The notes below the pieces were generated by a model, which saw only the letters and a list, made by a program, of their open reading frames with translations, ran no database searches and was not told where the DNA came from. From Clostridiales bacterium Firm_09 (GTDB lineage Bacteria; Bacillota; Clostridia; Christensenellales; DTU072), in contig LVAO01000004.1 of assembly GCA_001604065.1 (NCBI GenBank), positions 1-64,000 on the forward strand: 64,000 nt of DNA, read 5' to 3'. Shown here piece by piece: positions 21,992-31,887 of this stretch. The position numbers and the translations under genes were made by a program. The first letter of the stretch is position 1, and every line of letters starts with the position of its first letter.

Positions 21992-23020
21992 TTAATTAGG
22001 AAGCATCCAATCCACATAAATCCCGTAACCTCTCGTCGGATCATTGATAAAAACATGGGTTACGGCACCAATCAGTCTTCCGTTCTGGACAATCGGAGAT
22101 CCGCTCATACCCTGGCATATTCCGCCGGTTTTTTCCAGCAGAACAGGATCGGTCACATGGATCACCATGCTTTTATCTTCGGCGATATTCTGATGAACCG
22201 CTTTGACAATCTCTATTTCGAATTTCTGAGGCTCCGTACCGTCGATTGTCGTATAAATGTATGCGGCACCCTGCCGGACAGTGTCCCGGCTTCCCAGCGC
22301 GATAAGCGGACGTTTATCGAATAAAGCATCCTCGGATATGCCGAAAACACCGGAAAATATATTTTTTTCCAGCGTACCGCATATGGGATCCATGCGTCTG
22401 AAAGTACCCCGGAGTTCTCCGGCCTTGCCCGCCTCTCCTTTTACAATGCCCACAATGCGCGCGTCATATAAATAACCTTTATTATAATAGGACTTCCCTT
22501 TGGAAAACTCATCGAATATCGGATGCCCCAATCCTCCGAAACGTTTGTTGTCCGCACGCACATAGGTGAGAGTACCGATACCCGCTATTTCATTTTTTAC
22601 AATAATCCCCAACTTTTTCTTGTTTTCCAGTATATCAACCAACGGTCTGACCATTACTTCCGATTCGACGCCATCCCGCCTTATTACCAGTCTGACATTA
22701 TCCTCTTTACAAGAGTTGACGATTCTTCCCACATCCTCTGTCGAATCCACCTGATATCCGTTTATGCTTATCAACAAATCTCCCGGCTGAATAAGCTCCG
22801 TACCTTCGGCTTTCTTTGTGCCTTCGCGGGTAATAATCAGCCTTGTTTCCGTAATAATAAGGTGATCGCTTGCGGCGACCAAACCGATAGGCGTACCGCC
22901 GAGATATACTGAATCCAGATTGCCGTATGCTTCCGCAAACCCGACACTCTGCAAGACAGGCAAAAAAAACAGAACACTTGCCAAAAGCAGCAGCAACAGA
23001 ACCTTATACGTTTTTCGCAT
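21992..23020 (-). CDS. spoIVB: SpoIVB serine peptidase
   Basis: S55-family PDZ protease made in the forespore that triggers pro-sigma-K processing in the mother cell. A signal anchor (about 5-28) is followed by a PDZ domain (about 75-140) and the peptidase region with GGLGHPIFD (His) and CQGMSGSPIV (Ser). At 342 residues it is shorter than the Bacillus protein. The start has the ribosome binding site AAGGCGG. A sigma-G-like promoter and a hairpin overlapping the ribosome binding site lie upstream. The usual downstream gene spo0A is missing; lspA follows instead. Confidence 0.93.
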   Translation of the reverse strand: MRKTYKVLLLLLLASVLFFLPVLQSVGFAEAYGNLDSVYLGGTPIGLVAASDHLIITETRLIITREGTKKAEGTELIQPGDLLISINGYQVDSTEDVGRIVNSCKEDNVRLVIRRDGVESEVMVRPLVDILENKKKLGIIVKNEIAGIGTLTYVRADNKRFGGLGHPIFDEFSKGKSYYNKGYLYDARIVGIVKGEAGKAGELRGTFRRMDPICGTLEKNIFSGVFGISEDALFDKRPLIALGSRDTVRQGAAYIYTTIDGTEPQKFEIEIVKAVHQNIAEDKSMVIHVTDPVLLEKTGGICQGMSGSPIVQNGRLIGAVTHVFINDPTRGYGIYVDWMLPN

Positions 23021-26301: not shown

Positions 26302-27036
26302 CTATTGCAGCGCCATGCAATGGATAAAATATTCCTGATTCTTTTCCGCAAAGGGGTGCGGCGCTTTGATTGTGCCCGATACGGACAATCCCAGGTCTGT
26401 GCAGAACGTCTGGATCTCCTTTACGATGCGTTCCCCTGACGATTTATTCAGAAGTATCCCCTCCTTATTCAGAGCGGCTTTCCCGACTTCAAATTGTGGT
26501 TTGATAAGCGCAACGATGGAAGTCAGCGGTTTGACAAACTGCATTACGGCAGGTAAAATCAATTTGAGCGAAATAAACGACACATCGATCACAATCAGGT
26601 CTGCCTTTATCCCGATGTCCTCAAACGGGAGATAGCGCGCGTTCCGTTTATCCCGTATGACGACACGGGGATCGCATTGAAGATGCGGGGGAAGGGCGCA
26701 CGCACCCACATCAACCGCAAATACTTTCGCAATGCCTCTGCGAAGCAGAACATCCGTGAAACCGCCGTTGCTTGCACCGATATCGATGGCTGTTTTGCCT
26801 TCGCACGAAATATGAAATTGCTCCAATGCGTCATTGAGCTTGATGCCTCCCAAAGAAGCAAAATCGTCGCCTGCCGCGATTTCCACCTTCGTGCCGGGCA
26901 TGACAAGCTGAGATACTCTGGCCGCCGGTTTGCCGTCCAGAGTTACTTTGCCCAGCTTGACAAGGTTTGCCGCATGGGTTCTGGAGCGGGCATATCCATT
27001 CTGAAATAAAAACAAATCCAGCCGGACACCGCTCAT
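26302..27036 (-). CDS. tlyA: TlyA-family rRNA 2'-O-methyltransferase
   Basis: An S4 RNA-binding domain (about 1-65) is fused to an FtsJ-like methyltransferase (about 70-240). The SAM-binding region reads AIDIGASNGGFTDVLL, and KADLIVIDVSFISL follows. TlyA proteins 2'-O-methylate 16S and/or 23S rRNA; older annotations call them hemolysins. At 244 residues it is slightly short. The ATG overlaps the oapA stop by four bases, so translation is probably coupled. Confidence 0.92.
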   Translation of the reverse strand: MSGVRLDLFLFQNGYARSRTHAANLVKLGKVTLDGKPAARVSQLVMPGTKVEIAAGDDFASLGGIKLNDALEQFHISCEGKTAIDIGASNGGFTDVLLRRGIAKVFAVDVGACALPPHLQCDPRVVIRDKRNARYLPFEDIGIKADLIVIDVSFISLKLILPAVMQFVKPLTSIVALIKPQFEVGKAALNKEGILLNKSSGERIVKEIQTFCTDLGLSVSGTIKAPHPFAEKNQEYFIHCMALQ

Positions 27037-27671
27037 TTTTTTTCAAAAACAGAGAGCATTCTCCCTGTCAGCAGAATAATATCTTTGGAATGACGTATCG
27101 CGATATTCTTGAAGATGGCTTTGCCGCCTACGGTTACCGCACAGACAATGCTCGAAAACAATATCGAAATCCAAAAACTGAGCCGGTCGGCCGAAGTCAG
27201 TGTAATTTTGATAACGATAGCGAGGGTGCAGGATCCGCTGACTATGCCGCAGATATCCCCTAAGACATCGCAACAGATGCTGCTTACCTTGCCGGAATTT
27301 TTGACGAGCCTGATTGCCATACGGCTGCCTTTTATTTTCTTTGCCGCCATGGACAAAAGCGGGGCAAGTTCGCAGGAGGTTGCCGCAACACCGATGGCAT
27401 CAAAGATGACGCTAAGAACAATCAGCAGAAGCAGAAGCATGAAAGCCACCGAAATATGGGCTGTTGATGTCGTGATTTCGGATAAAAATGAGAAAAAAGC
27501 GGACAAAACAAAAGTGATTATCGTGATATTGATAATCCATATAGTCAGCTTATTCTGTCTGGTGTCGGATTTTTCGCGCCAGACATTGCCGGAAACCTCT
27601 GCAGAATTCATTTTCCCGCGTCCGTCCGCTTTGATACTCAAAGGTGTTTCCGCGTCTTTTTTGATCTTCAC
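27033..27671 (-). CDS. oapA: OLE RNA-associated membrane protein OapA
   Basis: A 212-residue membrane protein with about four membrane segments (42-63, 72-94, 139-158, 167-185) and a basic N-terminus. Residues 135-139 (DVLGD) form the DxxxD motif characteristic of OapA, the protein that ties OLE RNA to the membrane. The region FDAIGVAATS...LAPLLSMAA also recalls the DUF21/CNNM transmembrane domain, but no CBS domains follow. It is encoded immediately downstream of the OLE-like RNA and upstream of tlyA, the established oapA position. It starts at a GTG with GAGG five bases upstream. Identity rests on position, topology and motif; no alignment was run. Confidence 0.8.
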   Translation of the reverse strand: MKIKKDAETPLSIKADGRGKMNSAEVSGNVWREKSDTRQNKLTIWIINITIITFVLSAFFSFLSEITTSTAHISVAFMLLLLLIVLSVIFDAIGVAATSCELAPLLSMAAKKIKGSRMAIRLVKNSGKVSSICCDVLGDICGIVSGSCTLAIVIKITLTSADRLSFWISILFSSIVCAVTVGGKAIFKNIAIRHSKDIILLTGRMLSVFEKK

Positions 27672-27699
27672 AACAACCTCAGAATCGTGGTTATAATCT

Positions 27700-28324
27700 C
27701 TTTTTCTGCTGTCTGCGGTTTCCCGCGTTGCCTATTCTGAAAAACAGAATAAAAAAATGGTGGTAAAGATTGAGTAAACCTTGCGCCATCAGGTTCGGTA
27801 GGATTTCCCAACGTTGTACTTGCCGTCGCCGAACAAGCAGTTTCCTTTTGAACAACGTCAAGCCGGATTGCTCCATAGCTTAACCGAATCGCCACTTAGT
27901 GCACACTATAATCCTCAATCTTTGCAGTCTAGAAATTTTCTTTCTCGGAACGGATACAACCTATCCTCTTTTGCAACCGGGGTTTCAAGGGCAAGGGGCG
28001 AAGCATCTGCGCAGATGCATCAGCCTGATTCACCTATTCACACCAGCCACTCAAGGCAAGCTACTCTGCACACAGCTATTGTTTACCGCATTGCAGGTTT
28101 TATCCCAATCAGTAGGCCTTTCGGCCAACCGGAGAGGGTCTCCACGGTAAATGGGTCGATTCCTTCATGCCGTTGAAGGCCGCCCATATACCTTAACTCC
28201 CAGCATCAGCCCCGATTTGGGCAATCAAAGCCAACACAAGAAACTTCATCGATATGCTCTACGACGGTATTTTATCTCCGTCCTCGATTGCATCGTATCC
28301 GACTAGAATACTGTACCACCAATG
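27700..28324 (-). ncRNA. ole: OLE RNA (ornate, large, extremophilic RNA), approximate ends
   Basis: This stretch between ispA and oapA is gene-free but rich in pairing. The stems in window coordinates are 27765-27774 with 27914-27923 (ten perfect pairs), 27793-27798 with 27829-27834, 27811-27817 with 27852-27858 (crossing the previous stem, a possible pseudoknot), 28003-28010 with 28011-28018, 28082-28088 with 28145-28151, 28115-28118 with 28123-28126 (GAAA tetraloop), 28162-28167 with 28174-28179, and 28263-28267 with 28278-28282. It has its own promoter. OLE RNAs are about 600 nt, lie upstream of oapA in the nusB-folD-xse-ispA neighbourhood, and form a membrane ribonucleoprotein linked to stress tolerance. 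The 5' end near 28324 follows from the promoter; the 3' end is a guess. Confidence 0.82.
27733..27751 (-). other. Hairpin near the 3' end of the OLE RNA
   Basis: TATTCTG (27745-27751 on the minus strand) and CAGAATA form seven perfect pairs around a loop of five Us. The preceding RNA contains a run of six Us, but no U-run follows, so this does not look like a standard terminator and transcription may continue into oapA. Confidence 0.5.
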
Positions 28325-28330
28325 GCCAAC

Positions 28331-28359
28331 ATTATAGCATGTTTCAGGCATTTTCGCAA
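28331..28359 (-). promoter_or_regulatory. Promoter of the OLE RNA
   Basis: The -35 TTGCGA (28354-28359), 17 bases, and a perfect -10 TATAAT (28331-28336) with TGC directly before it (extended -10). It begins about 40 bases after the ispA stop, so the RNA can be made independently of the upstream operon. Confidence 0.78.
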
Positions 28360-28396: not shown

Positions 28397-29242
28397 CTAA
28401 ATCAGTCTATGCGAAAGCGTTTCCGTATATTCCCGCAGGTTCTCCAATCTGCCGGCCGAAGCTGTTGATAATTTATCAAAAATCGATTGGCAAATGCGAT
28501 TTTGCTTTGCAATTTCTTCAAGAGTATCTTCTTCTCCGTACAGCGAAGGAAAGGTTGTCTTGCCCTTATCTCCACCTGCGCGGAAATCAAGCAGATCGTC
28601 GACCAATTGAAAAACGAATCCGATGGCAAGCCCCAACCGCTCTATATCATGGAGATAGGGAGAGTTGGCCGCTATATACGGAACTGTGACAGCCGCCTGA
28701 ATCAGTGCTCCTGTTTTTAAGGTATCGATATGAATAAGTTCTTTTTTATCCGGGTTCCGGATAGTAAACTCCGCCGACTGCCCGCCCACCATACCGCGTA
28801 CACCGGCAGCTCTGGAAATTGCGTAAGCCGCGGGCACCAATGCCGAATCTTTTATACAGGCCTCCAACAGAATCTCATGTCCGAGATTGAGGAGCGCGTC
28901 GCCTGCAAGCATCGCTATCGCTTCGCCGTATACCTTATGGACGGTCGGTCGTCCCCTGCGCAGATCATCATTGTCCATGCATGGCAGATCATCATGGATG
29001 AGAGAATAATTATGGATGCATTCCAGCGCGCAGGCAAGCGGCAATATACGTTTGCGCGGGATATCTGCGGCATCTGCCGCAAACAACATCAACACGGGCC
29101 TCACACGCTTTCCGCCTCCGTTCACCGCATATTTCATTGCATCAAGCAAAACAGGATCGGTATTGCCTTCCAACGCCTGAAAATAAACCGGAAGCGCTTC
29201 TTCAATTTCCTGCAAAGCCAGACTAACGGAGTTTTTCATCAT
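28397..29242 (-). CDS. ispA: Polyprenyl (farnesyl/geranylgeranyl) diphosphate synthase
   Basis: Trans-prenyltransferase condensing IPP with allylic diphosphates. The first aspartate-rich motif is in LIHDDLPCMDNDDLRRG, with the typical DDxxxxD spacing. The second is in QLVDDLLDF. GGGKRVRPVLMLF is the N-terminal signature. At about 281 residues it fits the FPP synthase group beside xseB. Two consecutive ATGs (29242, 29239) can serve as start; both lie inside the end of xseB. Confidence 0.93.
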   Translation of the reverse strand: MMKNSVSLALQEIEEALPVYFQALEGNTDPVLLDAMKYAVNGGGKRVRPVLMLFAADAADIPRKRILPLACALECIHNYSLIHDDLPCMDNDDLRRGRPTVHKVYGEAIAMLAGDALLNLGHEILLEACIKDSALVPAAYAISRAAGVRGMVGGQSAEFTIRNPDKKELIHIDTLKTGALIQAAVTVPYIAANSPYLHDIERLGLAIGFVFQLVDDLLDFRAGGDKGKTTFPSLYGEEDTLEEIAKQNRICQSIFDKLSTASAGRLENLREYTETLSHRLI

Positions 29243-29441
29243 CCAATTCCAGTTCAAGACGCTCTGCCGCATCTTTCAGAAGCTCCAGCCTGCCTTTACC
29301 CTCTTTAATGCCCGCAAGACAGATTCTCGCGGATTCTATAGCTTCGTTAAAAAGGGCCAGACTGTCGTCAATGGACAGCGTTTCGTTTTCCAACCTGGCT
29401 ACAAGCGCGTCCAATTTTTCGATTTCTTTTTCAATATTCAT
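29223..29441 (-). CDS. xseB: Exodeoxyribonuclease VII small subunit
   Basis: Small helical subunit that assembles on XseA. The 72-residue protein reads IEKLDALVARLENETLSIDD near its start, followed by ALFNEAIESARIC, the family pattern. The ATG at 29441 has a consensus AAGGAG five bases away. It overlaps the xseA stop by four bases and ispA by about 20. Confidence 0.93.
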   Translation of the reverse strand: MNIEKEIEKLDALVARLENETLSIDDSLALFNEAIESARICLAGIKEGKGRLELLKDAAERLELELDDEKLR

Positions 29442-30637
29442 AGTGTCTCCTTGTATTCGGTAGATAATACCTCCGCATCCAGCGTACCGTCTGCTCCATA
29501 CAGGCGAAAGATGTCGCCGCACACCAGATCTCCTATCCTGCGGACGTCTTTACCATCCTTCATCGCGCGAAAATAGCCTTTTTGTAAAAGTGCTGCCGGA
29601 TTCAGTGCGGACAACTTCGCCAAAAGCGACTCTGTCCTGCGTTCTGCAAGCGTCATACGGGCATCGGCAAGACGCATTGCTTTTTGTGTCCGCAAAGCGA
29701 TTTTTTGCGCATAAGCATTGAGTCTCGACGAACAGATATGCCGCACATCTCTTGTACGGCTCTTCACTTTCTGATACAGCGCGTCGGTACGCAAGGACAC
29801 CATTGCGCCCGCACGGATGGTTTTTTCTACAATCTGTTCTGCAAGTTCTTTCGCATTGAACGAGAGCATTTCTGCTGCGGCGGTGGGGGTCATAGCGCGG
29901 GCATCCGCGGCAAAATCGCATAAAGAATAATCCGTTTCGTGTCCCACGGCACACACAGTCACCGTACGCATATTGCCGACAGCGCGTACTGTCTTTTCAT
30001 CATTGAACGGCATAAGGTCTTCAGAAGAACCTCCGCCTCTTGCAAGAATAATTGCGTCAAATCCTTGCGTGTCGGCAAGCCTCAAACCTTCACAAATGGC
30101 GTCCACTGCGCCCTCTCCCTGTACCGGAACATTGATGCAGGTCAAATCGGTAATTTTGTTGTTTTTGCGGAAGGTCCGCACGATATCGTAGATGACCGCT
30201 CCCGACAAGCTGGTGACTATACCGACTTTTAGAGGAAATCTTGGCAGCGGACGCTTTCTTGCGGCATCAAAAAGACCTTCTCCGGCAAGACGCTGACGCA
30301 GCTTTTCCAGTTCCGCAAACAATTTTCCTTTTCCGAAGGGTTCGATTCTGTTTACCACAAAGCTGAGCTTGCCGCCTTTTTGGTAATACTCCGGTGAACC
30401 GAACAACAGAACCTGTTCGCCTTCGGCCGGCAGATAGCTGCTCTTTTTGAAATGAAAAAAGCACGCAGCAATCTGCGCGCCTTCATCCTTGACGGTAAAA
30501 TACAGATGGTTGCCCGCAATTGAAAGCCCGGACACTTCACCCATTACCGGGATGTTTTGAAGAAGTTCTTCTGCGGCAATGGTACGGTAGAGGTAGTAAT
30601 TCAGTTCGGATACGGTAATATAATTTTTAGTTTCCAT
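29438..30637 (-). CDS. xseA: Exodeoxyribonuclease VII large subunit
   Basis: Catalytic subunit that degrades single-stranded DNA from both ends. An N-terminal OB fold (about 5-100) is followed by the nuclease domain with KVGIVTSLSGAVIYDI, ARGGGSSEDL and a VGHETDYSLCDFAADARAMTPT segment. A long coiled coil follows (about 270-345). I start at METKNY (30637), giving 399 residues, which overlaps the folD stop by 11 bases. The longer reading runs into folD. Confidence 0.95.
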   Translation of the reverse strand: METKNYITVSELNYYLYRTIAAEELLQNIPVMGEVSGLSIAGNHLYFTVKDEGAQIAACFFHFKKSSYLPAEGEQVLLFGSPEYYQKGGKLSFVVNRIEPFGKGKLFAELEKLRQRLAGEGLFDAARKRPLPRFPLKVGIVTSLSGAVIYDIVRTFRKNNKITDLTCINVPVQGEGAVDAICEGLRLADTQGFDAIILARGGGSSEDLMPFNDEKTVRAVGNMRTVTVCAVGHETDYSLCDFAADARAMTPTAAAEMLSFNAKELAEQIVEKTIRAGAMVSLRTDALYQKVKSRTRDVRHICSSRLNAYAQKIALRTQKAMRLADARMTLAERRTESLLAKLSALNPAALLQKGYFRAMKDGKDVRRIGDLVCGDIFRLYGADGTLDAEVLSTEYKETL

Positions 30638-31475
30638 GTTGTTTGAGATATGCCGTAAGCGTATTGGCCATAAGCATCGCAATCGTCATGGGTCCTACCC
30701 CTCCCGGTACGGGTGTTATATACGAACATTTGGGCGCTACATGCTCAAAATCGACATCGCCGCATAGGCCCGTTTCATTTCTGTTGATACCCACATCGAT
30801 GACGACGGCACCTTCTTTGACCATATCCGCCGTAATCATTCTGGCTTTTCCGACCGCAACGACAAGAATATCTGCTCTGCGAGTAAAGTCTGCGATGTCC
30901 GCAGTACGGCTGTGGCATATGGTAACCGTCGCATTTCTTGACAGGAGAAGCTGTGCGATCGGTTTGCCCACAACGTTGGAACGGCCGACGACAACTGCAT
31001 TTTTTCCTTCCAGCGGGATATTATATTGGTCAAGCAATGCGAGGACGCCTTTCGGAGTGCAGGCTACAAGCTCCGGTCTCCCGAGATTCAATAAACCAAT
31101 CTGATAAGCCGAATAGCCGTCAACATCCTTGGCAACATCTATGCATTTCAGAATGGCATTTTCGTCATAACCGGCAGGCAGCGGCAACTGCACAAGGATG
31201 CCGTTGACATGTGGGTCATGGTTTAATTTTTCTATCAGCGAGATAATTTCTTGCTGCGGCGTGCCGTCAGGGTATCGGTACATCAGGGAAGCTATGCCGG
31301 CTTCTCGGCAGGCTTTCTCTTTGTTGGAGGTATAAATCATGCTTGCGGGATCCTCTCCGACAAGAATGACGGCAAGTCCTGCAGGGTCGCCGTATTTCTG
31401 AATTGCTTCGGCAAACCGGAGGGCAAGACCGGCGCGAATCTCCGCTGCGGTTTTTTTGCCGTCAATCAGCTGCAT
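30627..31475 (-). CDS. folD: Methylenetetrahydrofolate dehydrogenase/cyclohydrolase
   Basis: Interconverts methylene-, methenyl- and formyl-THF. Visible motifs are YTSNKEKACREAGI with the catalytic Lys, GILVQLPLP, VVVGRSNVVGKP for NADP binding, and PVPGGVGPMTIAML near the C-terminus. At 282 residues it is standard. It overlaps the end of nusB by 14 bases. Its one-carbon product links to the thyA/folA pair elsewhere in the window. Confidence 0.96.
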   Translation of the reverse strand: MQLIDGKKTAAEIRAGLALRFAEAIQKYGDPAGLAVILVGEDPASMIYTSNKEKACREAGIASLMYRYPDGTPQQEIISLIEKLNHDPHVNGILVQLPLPAGYDENAILKCIDVAKDVDGYSAYQIGLLNLGRPELVACTPKGVLALLDQYNIPLEGKNAVVVGRSNVVGKPIAQLLLSRNATVTICHSRTADIADFTRRADILVVAVGKARMITADMVKEGAVVIDVGINRNETGLCGDVDFEHVAPKCSYITPVPGGVGPMTIAMLMANTLTAYLKQHGN

Positions 31476-31887
31476 TTTTGCCCCTCCCTTCCAGCTCTTT
31501 ATTCACAGAGGATAAGATTCCGTTGACATACTGATGGCTTTTTTCGGTGGAATACGTCTTGACCAGCTCCACCGCTTCGCTTATCGAAACAGAATGCGGG
31601 ATATCTTTCATGTATTTCATTTCATAAATCGCAAGAAGAAGCGCTGCCAAATCAAGCTTGAAAATCCGGTGAAGGGCAAATTTATCCGAATATCGTTCTA
31701 TGATTGCCACAAGTTCCGGATATTTGTCTATCACTCCTCGATATACATTTTGGATATATTCATAATCCGATTCCGAAATATCGGCGCTCATAATCATTTC
31801 CAACGATTTAGGGTTTTCTTCGCCTAAAAAAAGATATTCATATATTAATTTATAGACGGCATCTCTTGCTTTTTTTCTGCTTAACAT
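31462..31887 (-). CDS. nusB: Transcription antitermination factor NusB
   Basis: All-helical RNA-binding protein of the rRNA antitermination complex. It begins MLSRKKARDAVYKLIYEYLF and later shows HRIFKLDLAALLLAIYEMKY and an SISEAVELVKTYSTEKSHQYVNGIL segment, as expected. The protein has 141 residues. It lies 17 bases downstream of the asp23-family gene. Confidence 0.93.
   Translation of the reverse strand: MLSRKKARDAVYKLIYEYLFLGEENPKSLEMIMSADISESDYEYIQNVYRGVIDKYPELVAIIERYSDKFALHRIFKLDLAALLLAIYEMKYMKDIPHSVSISEAVELVKTYSTEKSHQYVNGILSSVNKELEGRGKNAAD

Follow-up and report, generated by a model that had tools for sequence, protein, structure and literature searches.

An ordinary OLE–OapA locus in an uncultured clostridial bacterium, and relatives that keep OapA after losing OLE RNA

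After almost 20 years, what OLE RNA does biochemically is still an open question. OLE is described as an abundant membrane transcript complexed with the proteins OapA, OapB and OapC, with OapA binding it at a ratio of at least two proteins to one RNA, and its strict tie to OapA has hampered the separation of the parts by comparative genomics. A gene-free region beside a small membrane protein gene of Clostridiales bacterium Firm_09 raises the question of whether the two are OLE and OapA, and whether relatives of this host can tell their roles apart. The window analyzed here comprises 64,000 nucleotides of the genome; the OLE–oapA locus described below lies on its minus strand.

The initial annotation had placed OLE with its partner OapA at 27033–28359, and the Rfam covariance model RF01071 bears out the RNA: it matches 27744–28335 end to end (model positions 1–616) with 418.3 bits and an E-value of 1.7e-120, against a curated cut-off of 50 bits. 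The match covers 592 nt of noncoding sequence adjoining oapA in the ispA/xseA operon and takes in the unconserved outer tails of the model; the RNA proper probably starts near 28324, inside that span. It is the only copy in the host genome as searched in full, and the sub-threshold Rfam matches to SNORD94, sau-6072 and the S15 leader were rejected as chance. The region is gene-free as described, with no credible gene between the end of ispA at 28397 and the start of oapA at 27671. The fold includes a terminal pairing (27758–28321) of UGGUGGUACAG with CUUUACCACCA, 91% complementary over 11 nt, and the ten-pair stem across about 140 bases that had been noticed before (27765–27923), whose arms at 27765–27774 and 27914–27923 lie 139 nt apart and are 100% complementary. 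Since chance would produce about 0.2 such 10-mers in 606 nt (our own estimate), stems alone are little proof, and the decisive evidence for OLE is the family covariance model. A crossing seven-pair helix had also been proposed. Perfect 7-mers do exist, of which one (27951–27957 with 28295–28301) is nested; the one that crosses the ten-pair stem (27906–27912 with 28331–28337) is probably a chance pairing because it uses the −10 box, which lies upstream of the expected RNA start.

The promoter to which this box belongs, likewise part of the initial annotation, consists of the −35 element TTGCGA (28354–28359), a 17-nt spacer and the extended −10 element TGCTATAAT (TGC-TATAAT, 28331–28339), giving 10 of 12 matches plus the extended −10 over 28359–28331 and an expected start at about 28324. 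A promoter scan alone performs near chance (two found vs 1.2 expected). A promoter at a similar position recurs in relatives. Of 110 distinct OLE loci of Clostridia and Bacilli, 84 carry TGnTAnnnT ahead of the conserved 5′ end of the RNA, so that a dedicated OLE promoter is a recurrent feature. For Halalkalibacterium halodurans, a single polycistronic transcript of the OLE cluster has been described (PMC12265935).

The adjoining oapA gene (27033–27671) encodes 212 amino acids from a GTG start, the VKI start being common to two genomes of the same genus. Its only Pfam family is CNNM, also known as DUF21, above the cut-off at 30.6 bits and with neither a CBS nor a CorC domain; CNNM is the signature common to OapA and MpfA (PMC11332333). 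The DxxxD motif (D135–D139, 27255–27269), reported to be absent from CNNM domains (PMC11332333), reads DVLGD here. Both of its aspartates are invariant in 54 homologous proteins, as are D91, K184 and K188. The AlphaFold2 model has a mean pLDDT of 87, and the top six PDB matches in a structure search with it were CNNM proteins of the CorB/CorC type, with probabilities of 0.97–1.00, 19–22% identity and no E-value below 0.02. In Halalkalibacter wakoensis (Bacillaceae), where OLE scores 521.8 bits and the order is ispA-OLE-oapA-dxs-tlyA, OapA is 39% identical to that of the window. The full model match, the DxxxD motif, the CNNM fold and the synteny with H. wakoensis make membership firm. The protein was thus named correctly from the outset, on its neighborhood, invariant DxxxD, CNNM-type fold and homology to OapA proteins encoded directly after OLE in Bacilli, and that the RNA is OLE and the protein OapA is virtually certain.

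The neighborhood was also read correctly. The genes nusB (31462–31887), folD (30627–31475), xseA (29438–30682, with homologues in the same order in relatives), xseB (29223–29522) and ispA (a polyprenyl synthase, 28397–29272) precede OLE and oapA in the known OLE arrangement; tlyA (S4 plus FtsJ rRNA methyltransferase, 26302–27036) follows, its start overlapping the oapA stop, and the run continues with nadK-argR-recN-spoIVB (nadK, argR, recN, folD, xseA and xseB were named by reading the sequences). The SpoIVB peptidase of this run, at 21992–23020, fits the connection that has been reported between OLE and sporulation genes. The host genome (G000) comprises 1.44 Mb and is 79% complete. Its nearest named OapA is that of Candidatus Stercoripulliclostridium merdigallinarum (59%), followed by yak, buffalo and horse gut genomes, digesters and 'Christensenella sp.' bins, with rumen genomes as well; these genomes we take to belong to the GTDB order Christensenellales. 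A non-extremophilic host, as had been suggested, is therefore plausible for this uncultured lineage of Clostridia with gut, rumen and digester relatives. The novelty attached to it did not stand: because OLE in gut bacteria has already been published (PMC11332333), the habitat adds nothing new. The host presumably uses the OLE complex as Halalkalibacterium does, and the locus is an ordinary, well-formed one, a new member in an order where OLE is common (136 of 297 genomes).

Comparison with known systems places both components within their families. The RNA shares with the H. halodurans type its full-length model match, its ends, its operon position before oapA and the upstream promoter element, and differs in that some variable hairpins are shortened and the small hairpin after CUAGACUG is missing. 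Its P6 (28141–28195) is formed by GGUAUAUGGG and CCCAUUUACC, and the latter, the 3′ strand, lacks the CCUCCU anti-Shine-Dalgarno match that has been described in H. halodurans and linked to bS21 binding (PMC12054373). The protein has the DxxxD motif, CNNM-like membrane core, basic cytosolic loop and position directly downstream of OLE of known OapA; unlike Halalkalibacter OapA, to which it is about 39% identical, it has a GTG start and is directly followed by tlyA instead of dxs. With the CNNM Mg2+ transporters MpfA, CorB and CorC it shares the membrane core fold at 19–22% identity, but it has no CBS pair or CorC domain and carries DxxxD.

According to a 2024 survey, neither OLE nor OapA might ever be present without the other (PMC11332333). 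At the window locus they co-occur, and OLE was found in 31 of 39 near relatives. Among the 297 genomes drawn from the order, most of them draft metagenome assemblies, a 20-sequence profile detected OapA in 175, and 41 of these 175 lack OLE. Two further genomes (G060 and G094) have OLE and no detectable OapA. After two OapA-only genomes with contig-end cases (G267 and G083) were dropped, 39 remained, 25 of them in f1 (G016 and G187), f6 (21 genomes, OLE in none) and f8 (G029 and G056), and 14 in f26. A whole-genome search of these 39 returned no OLE even at an E-value of 10, the best match reaching 11.7 bits; half-length OLE fragments still score at least 170 bits. The locus was followed in 21 of the 25 (leaving out G055, G202, G269 and G294), where the order is xseA-xseB-ispA-oapA-(dxs)-tlyA: oapA keeps its operon slot between ispA and tlyA or dxs, and the RNA is cleanly gone (L033 2000–2590, L135, L034, L136–L143, L149–L151, L035, L142, L198–L203). 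The first usable oapA start lies 31–117 nt past the ispA stop in 15 OLE-less loci, compared with at least 623 nt in OLE loci. These OapA proteins of f1, f6 and f8 share with that of the window the operon slot, DxxxD and membrane helices; their genomes differ in having no OLE, no L7Ae and, in every case, MpfA. Pairs of orphan OapA show dN/dS values of 0.04–0.23 and are hence under purifying selection. The OapA-only relatives contradict this published view that the two may always go together, and no report of OLE loss with OapA kept was found in the literature searched.

The losses are recurrent. In a tree of nine neighboring genes, G187 forms a group with G010 and G221, both of which carry OLE (100/100 for the three), while G016 falls outside it; a topology that unites G016 with G187 is rejected (AU p 0.0018), so that OLE was lost at least twice within one genus of f1. 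With at least one more loss in f6 and f8, which may represent one or two events, OLE has been lost at least three times overall.

Other arrangements were met in the same survey. Some f26 genomes carry a pair of oapA genes (L145 and L146, both of G069), of which one adjoins OLE; others have a single OLE-less copy (L144, G124). In G124, and likewise for the second copy in G069, the OLE-less gene is flanked by proS and an infC-like gene, both named by reading the sequences. In f14 (L206 of G079, L207 of G035), oapA precedes dxs with OLE on a different contig, and the pair looks unlinked. An OapA of an uncultured Bacilli genome (L104, 2881–3504) stands in another neighborhood with no OLE within 3 kb; OLE may lie elsewhere. 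Long OLE RNAs occur at L037 1557–2292 (G009, 736 nt, the extra length lying inside internal hairpins), G049:C13:9146–9976 (831 nt) and G179:C151:20250–21038 (789 nt). Half-length matches that suggested split OLE RNAs (G186, G053, G276 and G041; L048–L052) are assembly breaks, the contigs ending inside OLE. Likewise, G021 was rejected as a genome lacking both OLE and OapA: a clear tlyA is absent as well, and the assembly has probably just failed to capture the locus.

Two further proteins were counted in the same genomes. An MpfA-type CNNM protein is present in 25 of 25 OapA-only genomes of f1, f6 and f8, 30 of 136 OLE genomes and 111 of the 120 that have neither OLE nor OapA, and an OapC-type L7Ae protein in 0 of 25, 102 of 136 and 54 of 120, respectively (raw genome counts, related species included). 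MpfA and OLE have been reported as anticorrelated (PMC11332333); given the 25 of 25 versus 30 of 136, this holds within the order and, with f26 set aside, is tied to the RNA rather than to OapA. The exception, f26, has genomes of about 1 Mb with an OLE-less OapA and no MpfA. MpfA is absent from the 79%-complete host genome and from G002 of the same genus. An L7Ae/OapC (YbxF) gene, whose product binds a k-turn of OLE (PMC9723947), was not found in the 79%-complete host genome; two genomes of the same genus have one each. As to OapB, a KOW protein, the one significant KOW match of the host adjoins ribosomal protein genes and reads as rplX; OapB may escape the KOW model for lack of sensitivity.

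Within OapA, the trace of RNA loss is concentrated in residues 102–116 (LAPLLSMAAKKIKGS, 27324–27368), which in the AlphaFold2 model form a short helix (102–110) and a turn leading from TM2 to TM3. Judging from the basic N-terminus and loop, we infer that this segment faces the cytosol. It is conserved where OLE is present and eroded in older OLE-less OapA: in window numbering, P104 is kept in 52 of 54 OapA with OLE and 2 of 16 without, M108 in 50 of 54 and 1 of 16, and G115 in 48 of 54 and 2 of 16. The ratio of loop identity to identity in the rest of the protein is 0.80–1.38 in 51 proteins with OLE, as against 0.12–0.37 in f6, 0.65 in f8 and 0.49–0.61 in the f26 paralogues; in the two recent f1 losses it is 0.83–0.84, the loop being nearly intact with little erosion. 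Outside the loop, OLE-less OapA resemble OLE-type OapA no less than many of the latter resemble one another. A single family, f6, supplies the strongest erosion. Since the species are related, the Fisher and Mann-Whitney values, which ignore kinship, overstate significance. Binding of OLE had earlier been suspected for a conserved cationic cytoplasmic cluster of OapA (PMC12265935), and the natural OLE losses point to loop 102–116 as a candidate RNA dock.

The loop might instead contact another lost component (OapC, OapB or a ribosomal protein), or have simply drifted in f6, and so not be the RNA dock. In favor of this, L7Ae/OapC was lost along with OLE, one family supplies most of the eroded sequences, and some eroded loops partly keep their positive charge. 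However, partial erosion is also seen in f8 and the f26 paralogue, which are separate lineages, OapC binds a k-turn of OLE and not OapA (PMC9723947), and the cationic cluster was the earlier suspect (PMC12265935); we consider this reading unlikely, though a serious competitor to the loop as RNA dock. Far less probable is that the OapA-only loci are assembly artefacts, or that OLE moved elsewhere and diverged beyond the model. Most genomes are indeed draft metagenome assemblies and OLE lies at contig ends in several, yet in 21 loci, drawn from many assemblies, ispA and oapA are on the same contig a short distance apart, the contig-end cases G267 and G083 were set aside, and the relaxed search gave at most 11.7 bits where half-length fragments give at least 170. 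Finally, the 212-residue protein passes the Pfam CNNM cut-off and lacks CBS and CorC domains, as would a fragment of an ordinary CNNM transporter with OLE as a chance neighbor; that idea has next to no probability left, since it is already contradicted by the synteny, the protein adjoining OLE across Clostridia and Bacilli, and by the invariant DxxxD, reported absent from CNNM domains (PMC11332333).

With OapA as the membrane anchor of OLE, the following course of events can be envisaged. A dedicated extended −10 promoter, and perhaps read-through from ispA as well, would drive transcription of OLE, which would then fold and dock on the cytosolic TM2–TM3 loop of an OapA dimer. OapA may be a stripped-down CNNM-type membrane core for ion transport or ion sensing, on which OLE would stand in for the cytosolic regulatory domains (CBS/CorC) of MpfA, so that Mg2+ and stress state would be coupled to the cell. 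In genomes with a full MpfA, OLE and its L7Ae partner OapC could be dropped; OapA would then keep an RNA-independent membrane function and lose the RNA-docking loop over time. As a mechanism, comprising docking on OapA, replacement of CBS/CorC and dispensability with MpfA, this is tentative and somewhat more doubtful than an even call; the f26 genomes, which have an OLE-less OapA paralogue without MpfA, speak against the replacement by MpfA. Evenly balanced is the broader proposition that OapA works in the membrane independently of the RNA, with OLE as an optional regulatory module seated in its TM2–TM3 loop, which lineages owning MpfA as an equivalent made of protein only repeatedly discarded; MpfA would therefore anticorrelate with the RNA and not with OapA. 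The explanation as a whole, OLE with its anchor OapA plus the mechanism and weighted to the identity, is likely.

The pairing of OLE and OapA was already known, and the unexpected result is the loss of OLE with OapA kept. The value of the locus lies in its comparison set, in which the RNA was repeatedly lost and the membrane partner retained. Relatives that lost only the RNA from the same operon, twice in one genus, provide a natural test that separates the roles of OLE and OapA. They keep OapA without the RNA and single out a 15-residue loop as a candidate RNA dock, and MpfA accompanies the absence of OLE even where OapA stays. Each of these three points can be tested in the laboratory in the model H. 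halodurans.
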